From: Cellulomonas avistercoris
GTDB taxonomy: Bacteria > Actinomycetota > Actinomycetes > Actinomycetales > Cellulomonadaceae
NCBI RefSeq assembly: GCF_014836445.1
Contig: NZ_JACSQV010000002.1
Location: forward strand, 11,927-75,926
DNA: 64,000 bases
Reading direction: 5' to 3'
Every line of letters starts with the position of its first letter. Position 1 is the first letter of the stretch. The notes under the pieces are model-generated. The model worked only from the letters and a program-made list of their open reading frames with translations. It searched no databases and was not told the origin of the DNA. This document shows positions 7,614 to 12,812 of this stretch, piece by piece. A program made the position numbers and the translations under genes.

Positions 7614-10184
7614 TCAGTCCCCCGGCGGCACCAGCATCTGGCTGTCCACCGCGTCGGCACGCACGGCGGCCGCGGAGTACGGCCACGGGAACTGCCGGCC
7701 CTGCGCCCACGCCTCGAGCTGGTCGGCGTAGTGCGCGCTCGCCGGGTGCCCGGAGGTGCCGGTGAGGTTGACCCAGGTCGAGGAGTCGAGGTCACCGAGG
7801 TCGACGACCATGCGCATCGACGGCGCCGACGTCACGCCGTACGAGCCCGTGGCCGCGTCCCAGCTCGTCGCGGAGACGATCGACGAGCCGCCGCCGACGC
7901 GCTGCGGCGCCGGGTTCACCAGGCGGTGCAGCATCCCCGGCACGCCGTCGCCGCCGAGCACGGGGTGCGTGGGCGCCGCGGTGTGCAGCTGGCCCCACTC
8001 CCAGTCCTCGGTGCGGCTGCTGATCTGGGCGGTGAGCTGGCGCCGCGCGGACACCAGCGCCCGGGCGAGGACGTCGTCGCGGCCCTCGACGACGCCGGGC
8101 GTCGACCGGTCGTCCCACCAGGGGGACGTCGGGTCGTCCAGCATCCCGCGGACGACCTCGAGCCACCGCGAGTCGCCGGTCGGCGCGTGCCCCTCGGGCA
8201 GGTCGTCCGCGAAGGTCAGCTCGAGCACGTCCGCCCACACGGCGGCGAAGTACATGGCGGCCGCCGAGTCGACGTCCATCATCTGGTCCCAGTCGCGCAG
8301 CAGCTGCTGGCCGGCACGGTCGAACGGGTCCTCGACGCGGACCTGCAGGAGGGCCGGGACGAGCACCTGCGCGTAAGGGCTGTGCGCGTCCGTCTGCAGC
8401 TCGGCCGTGCTCGCGACGTCCAGGGGCTCGCCCGTCGCGATGCGTGCCGCGAGCAGGTCGCGGACGCGCTGGCTGCGGTACCCGTAGTCGGTGTCCTCCG
8501 CGAGGAACGGCCCGACGCCGAGCGGGGTCACCGCCTGGTTCGCCGCGACGACGAAGCCCTCGACGGGGTCCAGGACGCGCGGCATGTCCGCCGGGTCGAC
8601 CCAGCCCTGCCAGTCGTAGCGCGAGTCCCACCCGGGACGCGGCCATGTGCCGTCCGACGGGACGGGGCCGGCGACGGCACCGCGCAGCGGGACCCTGCCG
8701 GGCGCCTGGTACCCGATGTGCCCGTCGGTCGTGGCGAACACGATGTTCTGCGCGGGCACCTCCAGCAGGACCGCGGCCGCCGCGACGTCCGTGGCGTCCT
8801 GCGCGGTCATGAGCGCGAAGATCGCGTCGCCCGTGCGGCCCGGCGTCAGCGCCGTCCACGACAGCGCGACCTCGAACCGCAGGCCCGGGGCGTCGTCCGG
8901 GACGGGCGCGCGCTCCACGTCGGGCAGGTCGAGGACGTCCGAGACGAGGGGTCCGTGCCGCGTGCTGCGCACGTCGATGTCGACGTCGTCACCGCCCGCG
9001 ACCTCGATCGTCTCGGTCCGCACGTCGAGCGGCACCCGCTGCCCGTCGACGATGACCTCGCCGTCCTCGACGCGCTCGAGGAAGAAGTCGGTGACGTCGG
9101 CACCCATGTTCGTCAGGCCCCACGCGAGCGACCCGTTGTGGCCGATGACGACACCGGGCAGCCCCGCGAGCGAGAACCCCGTGGCGTCGAACGGGCACGC
9201 GTCCGTCACCTCGGCGCAGCGCAGCCCGACCTGGGACCAGACCCCCGGCGCCGAGATCCCCATGTGGGGGTCGTTGGCGAGGAGCGGCTTGCCGGACACG
9301 GTGTGCTCCCCGGCGACGGCCCACGAGTTCGACCCGACGCCGTCGCCGTCGCCGACGAGGTGCGGGACGGCCGCGAGCGCGCGCTCGGCCGACTCCAGCG
9401 CGCCCTGCAGACCCGCGTCGGTCAGGTCCAGCTGCGTCGTCGAGGCCGCGGGGGACGTCCCGGCGGCGACGTCGGCGGAGGTGACGATCGGCAGGTTGCG
9501 GTCCTGCGGGTACGGCGGGAAGAGCTCCTCGACGCGCGCGACGTCCTGCACGAACCGATAGGTCTGGGCGCGCGAGAGCTCACGGTCGTAGTTGGCGCGC
9601 AGGTCCCAGGCCATGGCCTTGAGCCACGCGAGCGAGTCGATCGGGTCCCACGCCTCGGGCGCCCGCTGCGGGACGCGCAGGCCCAGCACGGTGTACTCCA
9701 TCCCGATGGAGCCCGGGTCCCGGTCCTCGAGGTAGGCGTTGACGCCGTCGGCGTAGGCCTGCAGGTGGTCACGGGTGTCCTGCGACAGCAGGTCCCACTC
9801 CTGCTCGGCGACGCGGCGCCAGCCGAGCGTGCGGATCACGCGGTCCGCCTCGATCGCGCTCTCGTCGTCCCCGACGAGCTCCGCGAGCCGGCCCGCGCTG
9901 ACGTGGCGGCGGTAGTCCATCTGGAAGAACCGCTCCTGCGCGGACACGTAGCCCTGCGCGAGGAACAGGTCGTACGGCGTCTCGGCGACGATCGTCGGGA
10001 CCCCGCGGGCGTCGCGCGTGACCTCCACCTCGGCCTCGAGCCCGGCGAGCGCCTGGGTGCCCTGGACGTCGGGCAGGGGGCGGCGGACGACGAGCGCGCT
10101 GACGAGGGACGTGACCACCAGCGCGAGGACGACGACGACGGCGAGGACGACGAGCGCGGCTCGCAGGCGATGGCGACGGGGCAC
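7614..10184 (-). CDS. Penicillin acylase family N-terminal-nucleophile hydrolase, membrane-anchored
   Basis: An 856-residue Ntn-hydrolase that should self-cleave into alpha and beta subunits and hydrolyse an amide. Residues about 8-32 form one hydrophobic helix, so the protein is exported and anchored or secreted. The alpha region carries VEVTRDARGVPTIVAETPYDL and QERFFQMDYRRH. The maturation site is GVG-Ser285-Asn-Ser-Trp; Ser285 would become the nucleophile of the beta subunit. LANDPHMG and VIGHNGSLAWGLTN follow, as in the family. The C-terminal part has the usual GGDGVPG and GGGSSIV blocks. Start is the GTG at 10184, with TAGCCT seven bases upstream. The substrate (penicillin, acyl-homoserine lactone or another amide) cannot be read from the sequence. 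Confidence 0.88.
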   Translation of the reverse strand: MPRRHRLRAALVVLAVVVVLALVVTSLVSALVVRRPLPDVQGTQALAGLEAEVEVTRDARGVPTIVAETPYDLFLAQGYVSAQERFFQMDYRRHVSAGRLAELVGDDESAIEADRVIRTLGWRRVAEQEWDLLSQDTRDHLQAYADGVNAYLEDRDPGSIGMEYTVLGLRVPQRAPEAWDPIDSLAWLKAMAWDLRANYDRELSRAQTYRFVQDVARVEELFPPYPQDRNLPIVTSADVAAGTSPAASTTQLDLTDAGLQGALESAERALAAVPHLVGDGDGVGSNSWAVAGEHTVSGKPLLANDPHMGISAPGVWSQVGLRCAEVTDACPFDATGFSLAGLPGVVIGHNGSLAWGLTNMGADVTDFFLERVEDGEVIVDGQRVPLDVRTETIEVAGGDDVDIDVRSTRHGPLVSDVLDLPDVERAPVPDDAPGLRFEVALSWTALTPGRTGDAIFALMTAQDATDVAAAAVLLEVPAQNIVFATTDGHIGYQAPGRVPLRGAVAGPVPSDGTWPRPGWDSRYDWQGWVDPADMPRVLDPVEGFVVAANQAVTPLGVGPFLAEDTDYGYRSQRVRDLLAARIATGEPLDVASTAELQTDAHSPYAQVLVPALLQVRVEDPFDRAGQQLLRDWDQMMDVDSAAAMYFAAVWADVLELTFADDLPEGHAPTGDSRWLEVVRGMLDDPTSPWWDDRSTPGVVEGRDDVLARALVSARRQLTAQISSRTEDWEWGQLHTAAPTHPVLGGDGVPGMLHRLVNPAPQRVGGGSSIVSATSWDAATGSYGVTSAPSMRMVVDLGDLDSSTWVNLTGTSGHPASAHYADQLEAWAQGRQFPWPYSAAAVRADAVDSQMLVPPGD

Positions 10185-10228
10185 GGTCGAAAGGCTACCC
10201 GCGAGGACGCTTGACGGTGGCGCTAGAG

Positions 10229-10255
10229 TTGGCACTCGGATCCTGAGAGTGCCAG
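10229..10255 (+). promoter_or_regulatory. CIRCE element (HrcA operator) with overlapping promoter
   Basis: TTGGCACTC, nine bases, then GAGTGCCAG matches the CIRCE consensus TTAGCACTC-N9-GAGTGCTAA at 16 of 18 arm positions with the exact spacer. A -10-like TAGAGT (10224-10229) ends where the element begins, so HrcA bound here would cover the transcription start. It faces the zinc-ribbon gene at 10438, with about 180 bases of leader between. No groES, groEL or hrcA gene is nearby. Confidence 0.85.
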
Positions 10256-10437
10256 CAGCGCCCGCGACGCGGGCGCGACCGGACGGACGAGCTCGGTGAC
10301 CCGACGGCAGGCCGAGCGGCGTCCAGGACGCCACCGGCCGGGACGGGTGGACACCCGCCGCCGCCGGTGCAGCGGCACCCTCGGGGAAACCTTCGAGCAC
10401 GGCCGGGGACGCCCGGCGACGACGATCGGGAGTCACC

Positions 10438-10803
10438 TTGCCCACCTATGCCTACCGCTGCACGGCCTGCGACCACGCCTTCGAGGTGCAGCAGTCGTTC
10501 ACCGACGACGCGTTGACCGTCTGCCCCGCGTGCGAGGGGCGCCTGCGCAAGGTGTTCTCGAGCGTCGGGGTCGTCTTCAAGGGCTCCGGCTTCTACCGCA
10601 ACGACGCTCGCACGGGCAGCACCACGTCCGGCAGGTCGAGCGGGTCGGGCACGTCGGGCACCTCGACGGACACGTCGTCGTCCTCGTCGTCGTCCTCCGA
10701 CGCGTCGACGTCCACGTCGAGCAGCACTCCGGCACCGTCCTCCACGGGCTCGACGAGCTCGCCGGCCCCCGCGACGACGTCCAGCTCCGCCGCCTCCGCC
10801 TGA
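10438..10803 (+). CDS. FmdB-type zinc-ribbon protein
   Basis: A 121-residue protein whose first 55 residues are the FmdB/CxxC_CXXC_SSSS zinc ribbon. It starts PTYAYRC; the four zinc cysteines are C8, C11, C29 and C32, followed by LRKVFSSVGVVFKGSGFYRND. The remainder (about residues 60-121) is low-complexity Ser/Thr/Asp tail. The start codon is TTG at 10438 with GGGAG upstream; homologues begin at exactly this MPTYxY. The function is not known; the fold suggests metal-dependent binding to nucleic acid or protein. It is first after a CIRCE element and is followed by the SAF and mscL genes, an order usual in actinobacteria. Heat-shock control is an inference. Confidence 0.88.
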   Translation: MPTYAYRCTACDHAFEVQQSFTDDALTVCPACEGRLRKVFSSVGVVFKGSGFYRNDARTGSTTSGRSSGSGTSGTSTDTSSSSSSSSDASTSTSSSTPAPSSTGSTSSPAPATTSSSAASA

Positions 10804-10938
10804 CCCCACCCGCGGCGGGGCCCGTCGGGCACGCCCCGGACCGGCGCGAGCCGACCACAGGCCCCGCACCCGGCACCCTCCTCCCCCGGCAGGGAGGAGG
10901 CAGGCCCGCCGCGGGCCGTGCGCACCTAGCGTCGCGCC

Positions 10939-11652
10939 ATGGCCCTCCTGACACCCGCGAGCGCACCGCCCCGGCGCGCGACCGACGAGCGTCCGCTGCC
11001 CCCACCGCTGCCGCACGTGCGCGGCGCCGCCCGCGCGCGGGCACGGTCGGCGCTCTGGCGGTTCCGGTTCCTGCTCGCGGCGGTGTGCCTGGGCGTGGCC
11101 ACGGCTGCGACGGTCGAGGCGCTGCGCCCGCCGGCCGCCGCCACGCTCCCCGTGGTCGTGCTCGCGCACGACGTGGGTGCGGGTGCCGTCCTGGCGGCGG
11201 GTGACCTCGTCGTCGCCGACGTGCCCGCGGACGCCGCGCCGGACGGCGCGTTCCGGTCGCCCGACGACGCGCACGGGAGCGTCGCCGCCGTCGACCTGCC
11301 CGCTCGCCTCCCGCTCGCCCCCACGCTGCTGGCCGGCACCGGGCTCGCCGGCCCCACCGGCACCGTGGTGGTCGCCGTCCGGCTCGACGACCCCGCCGTG
11401 GCGGAGCTGCTGGAGCCGGGCCTGCACCTCGACCTGGTGGCGGCACGCCTCGAGGGCGGCCCCGGTGAGACGGTGGCCCGCCGGGCGCTGGTCCGCCCCG
11501 CGCCCGGCGCCGGCACCCCGTCGGGCGGCCTGCTGGGCGCTGCGCCGGCGGACGACGGACCACCGGTGCTCGTCGCGGTGACCCCCGAGGAGGCGGTGCG
11601 CATCGCGCAGGCGTCGGTCGCGTCCCGCCTCGTCGCGGTCGTCGTGCCATGA
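10939..11652 (+). CDS. SAF-domain (CpaB/RcpC-like) membrane-anchored protein
   Basis: A 237-residue protein with a basic proline-rich N-terminus, one transmembrane helix near residues 45-62 (FLLAAVCLGVATAATVEAL), and then a SAF domain starting at VVVLAHDVGAGAVLAAGDL. The C-terminal half resembles the RcpC/CpaB beta domain (VVVAVRLDDPAVAELLEPGLHLDLVA). CpaB/RcpC proteins assist Flp pilus assembly, but no pilus genes are in the window. This gene occurs next to fmdB and mscL in many actinobacteria, so it is probably a stand-alone exported protein of unknown role. TAGCGT lies six bases before the ATG at 10939, so it can also be transcribed on its own as a leaderless mRNA. Confidence 0.8.
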   Translation: MALLTPASAPPRRATDERPLPPPLPHVRGAARARARSALWRFRFLLAAVCLGVATAATVEALRPPAAATLPVVVLAHDVGAGAVLAAGDLVVADVPADAAPDGAFRSPDDAHGSVAAVDLPARLPLAPTLLAGTGLAGPTGTVVVAVRLDDPAVAELLEPGLHLDLVAARLEGGPGETVARRALVRPAPGAGTPSGGLLGAAPADDGPPVLVAVTPEEAVRIAQASVASRLVAVVVP

Positions 11653-11698
11653 TCGGAGAGGAATGCCGGAAAACCGCCGCAGGTCCAGGAGGGGTCGA

Positions 11699-12319
11699 AT
11701 GTCCGAGAACAGGCGTGACGGACTGCGCGGGGCGGGTCACCGGTTGCGATCCGTCGGCGAGAATCCCCAGGTCAAGGGCGTTGCGAAGGTGTTCCAGGGT
11801 TTCAAGGACTTCATCTCCCGCGGAAACGCGGTCGAGCTGGCCGTCGGTGTGGTCGTCGGTGCGGCGTTCACGCAGGTCGTCGACGCCCTGCAGAACGGGC
11901 TCATCAGCCCGGTCGTCGGGTGGATCTTCGGCAAGCCCAACCTCGACAACCTGTGGAACATCGGGCCCTACACGTGGAACGGCGACATCGCGGACACGGC
12001 CCAGCCGATCATGGTCGGGGTCATCCTCAACGCGATCATCCAGTTCCTCATCACGGCCGCGGCGATCTACTTCCTCATCGTCCTGCCGCTCAACGCGCTC
12101 GCGGCACGGCGCAAGAAGGGCCAGGAGGACGAGCCGGCCGCACCGGCCGAGGACCTCCTGCTGCTGCAGGAGATCCGCGACCTGCTCGCGCAGCGGCTCA
12201 GCCCGGCGATCGCGAACGACACGACCGGCGCACCCGGCGACCCGGGCACGCCGCCGCCCCCGCCGCCGTCACCCGCCGGGCCTGCAGGCGGTCCGCCCAG
12301 CATCCCGCCGGGCGCTTGA
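11699..12319 (+). CDS. mscL: Large-conductance mechanosensitive channel MscL
   Basis: MscL opens under membrane tension to release solutes after osmotic downshock. The 206-residue protein has the core GFKDFISRGNAVELAVGVVV (TM1) and the FLITAAAIYFLIVLPLNALA helix (TM2). The cytoplasmic helix EDLLLLQEIRDLLAQR follows. Two features exceed the usual 130-150 residues: about 30 extra basic N-terminal residues and a proline-rich tail. The ATG at 11699 is chosen because AGGAGGGG sits four bases upstream. An ATG at 11663 with GGAGAGG almost touching it would add 12 residues. It is probably co-transcribed with the SAF gene. Confidence 0.93.
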   Translation: MSENRRDGLRGAGHRLRSVGENPQVKGVAKVFQGFKDFISRGNAVELAVGVVVGAAFTQVVDALQNGLISPVVGWIFGKPNLDNLWNIGPYTWNGDIADTAQPIMVGVILNAIIQFLITAAAIYFLIVLPLNALAARRKKGQEDEPAAPAEDLLLLQEIRDLLAQRLSPAIANDTTGAPGDPGTPPPPPPSPAGPAGGPPSIPPGA

Positions 12320-12331
12320 CCGTCCGCATCT

Positions 12332-12352
12332 GACGGTCCGCGCCTGACCGTC
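12332..12352. terminator. Hairpin after mscL
   Basis: GACGGTC and GACCGTC form a perfect 7-bp inverted repeat across a seven-base loop, 13 bases after the mscL stop. The segment CCGCGCCTGACCGTC recurs once more just downstream (about 12377-12391), so the region up to 12400 is mildly repetitive. Confidence 0.5.
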
Positions 12353-12434
12353 CCGCAGACCGTCAAAACCTGAGGCTCCGCGCCTGACCGTCGGGACGCG
12401 AACGTCCGGACCACGCCGATCCGGCGGACCACGG

Positions 12435-12812
12435 CTACCAGTGCGGGGGCTTCTCGCGCCGCAGCCGTTCGTCGTTCGACGACGACTCCTCACGACCCCA
12501 GCCGTGGTCGGAGTCGTCGGCGGACCGCGTCGCGCGCCACAGGTCGTCGACGGTGACACCGGTCCCCGTCGCCCCCGGACCGCCGGTCGCGTCGGTGACG
12601 GCTCCGGACGCCACGGCGTCCGGGACGTCGGCGTCCGGGGCGTCGGCGTCGGGTGCGTCCGCCGGCGCCCGGTGCGCCGCAGCCGCACCCTCGCGGGCCG
12701 GTCCCGTGGCGGACGGGAACGCCGGCAGGTGGGCGTGCAGCACCGACTCGTCGGTGCCGACGGTCCCGGAAGGTCGCACGGCCCGGCGCGGACGGCGAGG
12801 TGCGCTGCTCAT
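12435..12812 (-). CDS. Small acidic protein downstream of the helicase-like gene
   Basis: A 125-residue protein of unknown function. It starts basic (SSAPRRPRRAVRPSG), runs through an Ala/Asp-rich low-complexity stretch (DAPDADAPDADVPDAV), and ends in a more ordered tail (VDDLWRATR, DDSDHGWGREE, SNDERLRREKPPHW). The final NDERL...PPHW pattern looks conserved in character and is the part most likely to be functional. The ATG at 12812 follows GAGGATCGGGAC. It lies 99 bases downstream of the large helicase-like gene on the same strand and may be co-expressed. Confidence 0.7.
   Translation of the reverse strand: MSSAPRRPRRAVRPSGTVGTDESVLHAHLPAFPSATGPAREGAAAAHRAPADAPDADAPDADVPDAVASGAVTDATGGPGATGTGVTVDDLWRATRSADDSDHGWGREESSSNDERLRREKPPHW

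Follow-up and report, generated by a model that had tools for sequence, protein, structure and literature searches.

The best described counterpart of the gene considered here is ruc (rv0991c) of Mycobacterium tuberculosis, coding for a redox-regulated chaperone that acts as a holdase once oxidized and passes its clients to DnaK (PMC7448276). Ruc has four numbered cysteines and coordinates one zinc; predicted disorder takes up more than half of its length, and the C-terminal disordered region measures about 7-61 residues across the family. HrcA represses ruc directly and SigH induces it, their two sites overlapping; the direct HrcA control was reported in 2020, with reference to an earlier study for the target (PMC7448276). 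Hsp33, a functional analogue, is likewise a redox-regulated holdase with four zinc-binding cysteines, although the two sequences are unrelated and Actinobacteria, in which Ruc is common, seldom have Hsp33 or lack it (PMC7448276). The present analysis concerns a controlling inverted repeat of chaperone expression (CIRCE), the putative binding site of the repressor HrcA, lying ahead of an fmdB-type zinc-ribbon gene, a SAF-domain gene, and mscL in Cellulomonas avistercoris (contig NZ_JACSQV010000002.1, positions 11,927 to 75,926; this whole stretch of 64,000 nucleotides is termed the window). Comparative analysis suggested that the element is an HrcA operator repressing the promoter of a ruc (fmdB-type) gene and that SAF and mscL form a separate unit with its own leaderless promoter, a reading to which we assign a probability of about 0.88. 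The locus fits without anything unusual into an established regulon, as the version of an already described HrcA target that is found in Cellulomonas-type genomes; added here are the breadth of its conservation, the separate promoter signature of SAF-mscL, and the lineage variation of the operator and of its sigma factor input.

The fmdB product matches Ruc

The product of the fmdB gene has the cysteines C8, C11, C29, and C32, numbered as in Ruc, followed by a tail rich in Ser, Thr, and Ala, and the four positions were kept in all FmdB-type proteins compared (250/250). Across the 213 of these that are encoded behind a CIRCE, the tail consisted of 42% Ser and 1% bulky hydrophobic residues; that of the window protein, about 63-66 residues and mainly Ser, Thr, Ala, Gly, and Pro, is predicted from this composition to be disordered and is slightly longer than the family range given in PMC7448276. 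By sequence, the product matches M. tuberculosis Ruc in its FmdB-type zinc ribbon and disordered hydrophilic tail, and the gene resembles ruc in carrying a putative HrcA site over its promoter. SAF and mscL also lie near ruc in mycobacterial relatives, there together with 5-formyltetrahydrofolate cyclo-ligase and moeA.

A preliminary description of the window had read the genes correctly (an FmdB zinc ribbon, SAF, and mscL), in agreement with Pfam and TIGRFAM domains, and had taken the first of them for an unknown small zinc protein standing where a chaperone gene would be usual. This part was not upheld, as the fmdB product matches a reported chaperone and the CIRCE therefore precedes a chaperone gene, a relative of one described as HrcA-controlled (PMC7448276). 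Since the zinc protein is a Ruc relative and Ruc is already under HrcA control, the link between CIRCE and fmdB is to be expected. The literature outside most subscription journals yielded no paper joining CIRCE with FmdB or FmdB with SigR, and a single one, on stress in M. intracellulare, for the FmdB family together with heat shock; the known link appears there under the name Rv0991c/Ruc.

A conserved CIRCE operator overlaps the ruc promoter

The canonical CIRCE consensus is TTAGCACTC-N9-GAGTGCTAA. The element at 10229-10255 reads TTGGCACTC-GGATCCTGA-GAGTGCCAG, with nine-base arms and a nine-base spacer, and was confirmed as a real CIRCE and the single match at up to three mismatches in the whole window. 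It agrees with the canonical form at 15 of the 18 arm bases (three mismatches) and with the degenerate form TTRGCACTC-N9-GAGTGCYAR at all 18; the preliminary description had recognized the element and its spacer correctly and had overcounted the agreement at 16 of 18. The three mismatches fall at places that vary before fmdB anyway among 153 distinct sites (base 3, A or G; base 25, C or T; base 27, A or G), and the inner eight bases of both arms are complementary without exception.

Conservation was assessed in three partly overlapping sets of loci, including a GTDB set (the best 80 of at least 241 confirmed fmdB loci), a class set (118 genomes drawn evenly, 111 with an fmdB gene, and 110 once the window's own genome was left out, namely 109 plus L260), and a genus set (60 genomes, own genome included; Cellulomonas supplied the nearest named relatives in the GTDB scan). 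A site was called before fmdB at up to two mismatches, within 450 bases upstream in the GTDB set. CIRCE was present in 67/80 loci of the GTDB set, in 87/110 class genomes (L260 having a four-mismatch relic only), and, at up to one mismatch, in 59/60 genus genomes, the exception L245 carrying a four-mismatch copy. A reversed control pattern never matched below four mismatches in the GTDB and 109-genome class sets and never below five in the genus set. The search upstream of actinobacterial fmdB genes, which the preliminary description had proposed, thus returned a conserved operator, and all sequence evidence was consistent with its placing of the zinc-ribbon gene in the HrcA regulon. This suggests that the HrcA-Ruc link of M. 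tuberculosis holds generally across the class Actinomycetes. At one locus (L159), the CIRCE upstream of fmdB is directly followed by a near-identical second copy, a tandem duplication of the operator.

The operator overlaps a -10-like box, as had been described before; the last T of this box (TAGAGT) is the first CIRCE base. The pattern TANNNT occurs precisely there in 54/59 CIRCE-bearing genus loci and in 0/59 at each of four shifted positions; the same place is occupied by it in 28/87 loci of the class set and 13/67 of the GTDB set. All 11 aligned genus sequences (L201-L211), the window included, also have TTGACG at the place of 10211-10216, 6-8 bases 5' of the box, which cannot serve as a -35 element because it is too near. 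The leader between CIRCE and fmdB is 182 bases long, compared with 25-29 in five named Mycobacterium loci. Its single-sequence fold gave a z score of -2.61 (10236-10440), and an Rfam search of 9800-12600 up to an E value of 1 matched no family; a structured leader RNA was dropped on the absence of an Rfam family and on the poor conservation of the leader among 11 genus sequences, only the last 35 bases or so, near the start codon, being conserved.

HrcA was found in 113 of the 118 class genomes. The window genome (4.17 Mb, 30 contigs) has one HrcA gene, which matches the full family model, and six other CIRCE sites at up to two mismatches in four places, comprising a pair at groES, a pair at groEL, and sites at hsp20 and hrcA; these genes were confirmed by Pfam, and a DnaJ-like reading frame follows hrcA. 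The hsp20/alpha-crystallin gene (L006:973-1410, minus strand) has its CIRCE at G000:C22:473625-473651, about 90 bases before the start, and the small heat-shock protein Hsp20 also appears to belong to the HrcA regulon of this genome. The locus thus shares the identical 27-base operator type with the classic HrcA/CIRCE regulon (groES-groEL, hrcA-dnaJ), which has its own sites at groES, groEL, and hrcA in the same genome, but the gene presumably controlled here is ruc and not hsp60, hsp10, or hrcA.

A promoter signature ahead of SAF

Leaderless promoters of actinobacteria have a -10 box shortly before the start codon. Such a box (TAGCGT) precedes SAF in the window, and 50 of 55 genus genomes have a -10 signature at a distance of 6-8 bases from a possible SAF start (47/53 before incomplete loci were added), a count raised somewhat by trying more than one start codon per gene. 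The background over all ATG and GTG codons of these loci, SAF starts included, was 57/4536, and no such signature stood before the fmdB starts (0/61). Beyond the genus, it precedes the gene after fmdB in seven of nine mycobacterial-type loci (4/5 named Mycobacterium and 3/4 judged alike), the other two having no reading frame listed, and in 3/4 Nocardia loci. At two mycobacterial-type loci (L085 and L185), Pfam identified a SAF domain in the gene that is the counterpart of rv0990c. In Streptomyces loci L021, L042, and L069 a phosphorylase-family gene follows fmdB instead of SAF (PF01048 in L069, similar frames in the others), and mscL either lies at a distance of about 2 kb or was missing from the stretch searched.

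Proposed mechanism

HrcA is inactivated by heat. HrcA bound to the element would mask the transcription start point together with the end of the -10 box and thereby prevent transcription; upon heating, ruc would be made along with GroES, GroEL, and Hsp20. The encoded protein is predicted to be a small holdase made up of a zinc ribbon and a disordered tail; oxidation would activate it, and it would hand its clients on to DnaK, as Ruc of M. tuberculosis does (PMC7448276). SAF and mscL would be transcribed from their own leaderless promoter, with at most some read-through from ruc. We infer HrcA binding, the heat response, and chaperone activity in this organism from these comparisons, which open Ruc to study as a core part of the heat-shock regulon in harmless hosts such as Cellulomonas or Streptomyces.

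Alternative readings of the locus

It is scarcely credible that the inverted repeat resembles CIRCE by chance or serves another regulator. At three mismatches the genome does contain further CIRCE matches (L008 and L009 among them), as well as matches to the reversed control (four forward and five reverse), but no match at up to three mismatches arose in 100 dinucleotide shuffles of the window, the same promoter position is kept in 59/60 genus genomes, and the 109-genome class set shows a clean gap between two and five mismatches, into which L245 of the genus set and the additional class locus L260, at four mismatches each, fall; a chance origin is refuted because the repeat is conserved. It is also very improbable that the penicillin-acylase-family gene is a target of the CIRCE, whether alongside fmdB or in its place. 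In the window this gene and fmdB diverge, with the CIRCE between them, but the -10 box that the operator overlaps is the one facing fmdB, and the operator remains before fmdB where other genes lie upstream, such as a same-strand 5-formyltetrahydrofolate cyclo-ligase. Several observations nevertheless weigh against a ruc operator with a separate SAF-mscL unit, including those listed here and those on SAF and mscL given below. CIRCE is missing before fmdB in 22/109 class genomes (among them G092, G115, G026, G117, G094, G106, and G080), all of which have HrcA, six as partial matches, and all of which have CIRCE-like sites elsewhere, with the reversed control also matching in 3/22; as HrcA and CIRCE elsewhere are kept, the link between CIRCE and fmdB is therefore not universal. 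Loss of HrcA was rejected as the reason for the missing sites by its presence in all 22, and HspR was rejected as a substitute regulator, its HspR-associated inverted repeat (HAIR) having no match below four mismatches in the loci of the 109-genome class set, with or without CIRCE. Conversely, G023 and G033 have CIRCE before fmdB yet no HrcA match, which is most simply explained by incomplete assemblies (80% and 94% complete, in 450 and 280 contigs). The distance from CIRCE to the gene is long in the window (182 bases, within 9-184 for the CIRCE-bearing loci of all three sets), no -35 element lies at normal spacing from TAGAGT, a sigma-70 scan of 10150-12450 returned no complete promoter, and the match to Rv0991c itself was drawn by way of mycobacterial relatives and the residue numbering in the paper.

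The remaining points bear on whether fmdB, SAF, and mscL form one HrcA-controlled operon that would provide a heat-induced osmotic valve, an arrangement that we regard as unlikely. The three genes share strand and order in the window, separated by 135 and 10 (or 46) bases; mscL lies downstream on the same strand in 45/60 genus genomes, SAF is next after fmdB in mycobacterial loci, and rv0991c-rv0990c of M. tuberculosis is presented as an operon under HrcA control (PMC8557902). The SAF signature is absent in five of the 55 genus genomes (L210, L215, L220, L229, and L242). In three of these (L215, L229, and L242) the cassette has moved, which is where the signature would be most needed. A hairpin after fmdB that five or fewer of 100 shuffles reach occurs in only 5/58 genus loci, window included, and is thus not conserved, such that a stop of transcription between fmdB and SAF is no more than possible; as the hairpin of the window also lacks a T run, the terminator was dropped as evidence. 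Read-through from fmdB/ruc into SAF is possible because there is no conserved terminator and an operon is reported in M. tuberculosis. Against a single operon stand the -10 signature of SAF itself, in the genus and in the mycobacterial-type loci, and the rearrangement of SAF-mscL in 6/60 genus genomes (three with the cassette facing fmdB and three with it upstream), in which the CIRCE stays with fmdB. No mscL was found downstream on the same strand within the stretch read in 24 of the 67 CIRCE-bearing loci of the GTDB set, a count that includes L030, L060, and L070 with short flanks and in which a divergent MscL could be missed, and the papers listed for HrcA plus mscL do not tie one to the other in their titles or abstract openings. 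The CIRCE was likewise kept with fmdB in the Gordonia locus L061, where fmdB is flipped relative to its neighbors. The earlier proposal that mscL might belong to the HrcA regulon was not supported, the signature and the moved cassettes speaking against it, and mscL is probably not part of that regulon. This removes a likely false lead, as there is no need to count the gene of the mechanosensitive channel among the heat-shock genes.

Lineage variation of the operator and its sigma factor input

The operators before fmdB differ between lineages in a single arm pair. The left arm has G in place of C at base 7 in 40/87 CIRCE-bearing loci of the class set (including L092, L108, L126, and L134), in 10/67 of the GTDB set, and in 0/59 of the genus set. 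This G breaks one arm pair, and the right arm retains the partner G in 86/87 class loci, such that many ruc operators of the class set have a broken left-arm pair compared with the classic regulon, and none in the genus do. In 12 class genomes searched genome-wide at up to two mismatches, with the sites read by eye, nine have the base-7 G before fmdB and none of their 44 other CIRCE-like sites has it (0/44); a genome without the G at fmdB can carry it elsewhere (G002:C15:343627).

The promoter consensus of SigR/SigH is GGAA-N-GTT. A GGAA-N17-20-GTT element with its GTT meeting the CIRCE was identified in 40/67 CIRCE-bearing loci of the GTDB set, 17/87 of the class set, and 24/59 of the genus set, compared with 0-2 at shifted positions. 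The overlap of this SigH-type element with the CIRCE occurs in mycobacterial, Nocardia, and Streptomyces loci and fits the SigH overlap described in M. tuberculosis (PMC7448276). In contrast to the mycobacterial loci, the element is not present in the window.

A broader and tentative proposal is that HrcA control of ruc is ancestral and class-wide in Actinomycetes, that many ruc operators are tuned weaker than the chaperonin operators, such that Ruc would be released before GroES/GroEL, and that a SigR/SigH-type promoter over the same site adds an oxidative input in some lineages. If so, a single stretch of 40 bases would sense both heat and thiol stress, and lineages would differ in having gained or lost the sigma input. 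The lineage-specific SigR/SigH-type overlay and the one-sided operator change offer a simple comparative system for the joining of heat and oxidation signals on one gene.

Features of the locus and neighboring genes

The features are collected in Table 1.

Table 1. Features of the fmdB/ruc locus and its surroundings, in window coordinates.
Feature	Coordinates	Strand	Basis or remark
Penicillin-acylase-family gene, divergent from fmdB	7614..10187	-	PF01804, E 1.5e-225
-10-like box TAGAGT, fmdB/ruc promoter	10224..10229	+	Last T is CIRCE base 1
CIRCE operator, putative HrcA binding site	10229..10255	+	9-9-9 inverted repeat; pattern search and conservation
Long untranslated leader, CIRCE to fmdB	10256..10437	+	Sequence alignment, Rfam, folding
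FmdB-type zinc-ribbon protein, 121 amino acids, TTG start	10438..10803	+	PF09723, TIGR02605
9-bp hairpin after fmdB, possible terminator, no T run	10877..10900	+	Fold search
-10-like box TAGCGT, 6 bases 5' of the SAF start codon, leaderless promoter signature	10927..10932	+	
SAF-domain protein, 237 amino acids	10939..11652	+	PF08666; weak CpaB/FlgA-like matches below curated cut-offs
mscL, large-conductance mechanosensitive channel	11663..12319	+	PF01741

The penicillin-acylase-family gene is a common and not constant neighbor of fmdB in relatives. Translation of mscL may instead start in frame at position 11699, where an ATG is preceded by AGGAGG. Several short copies of GACCGTC/GACGGTC lie at 12318-12378, after mscL.

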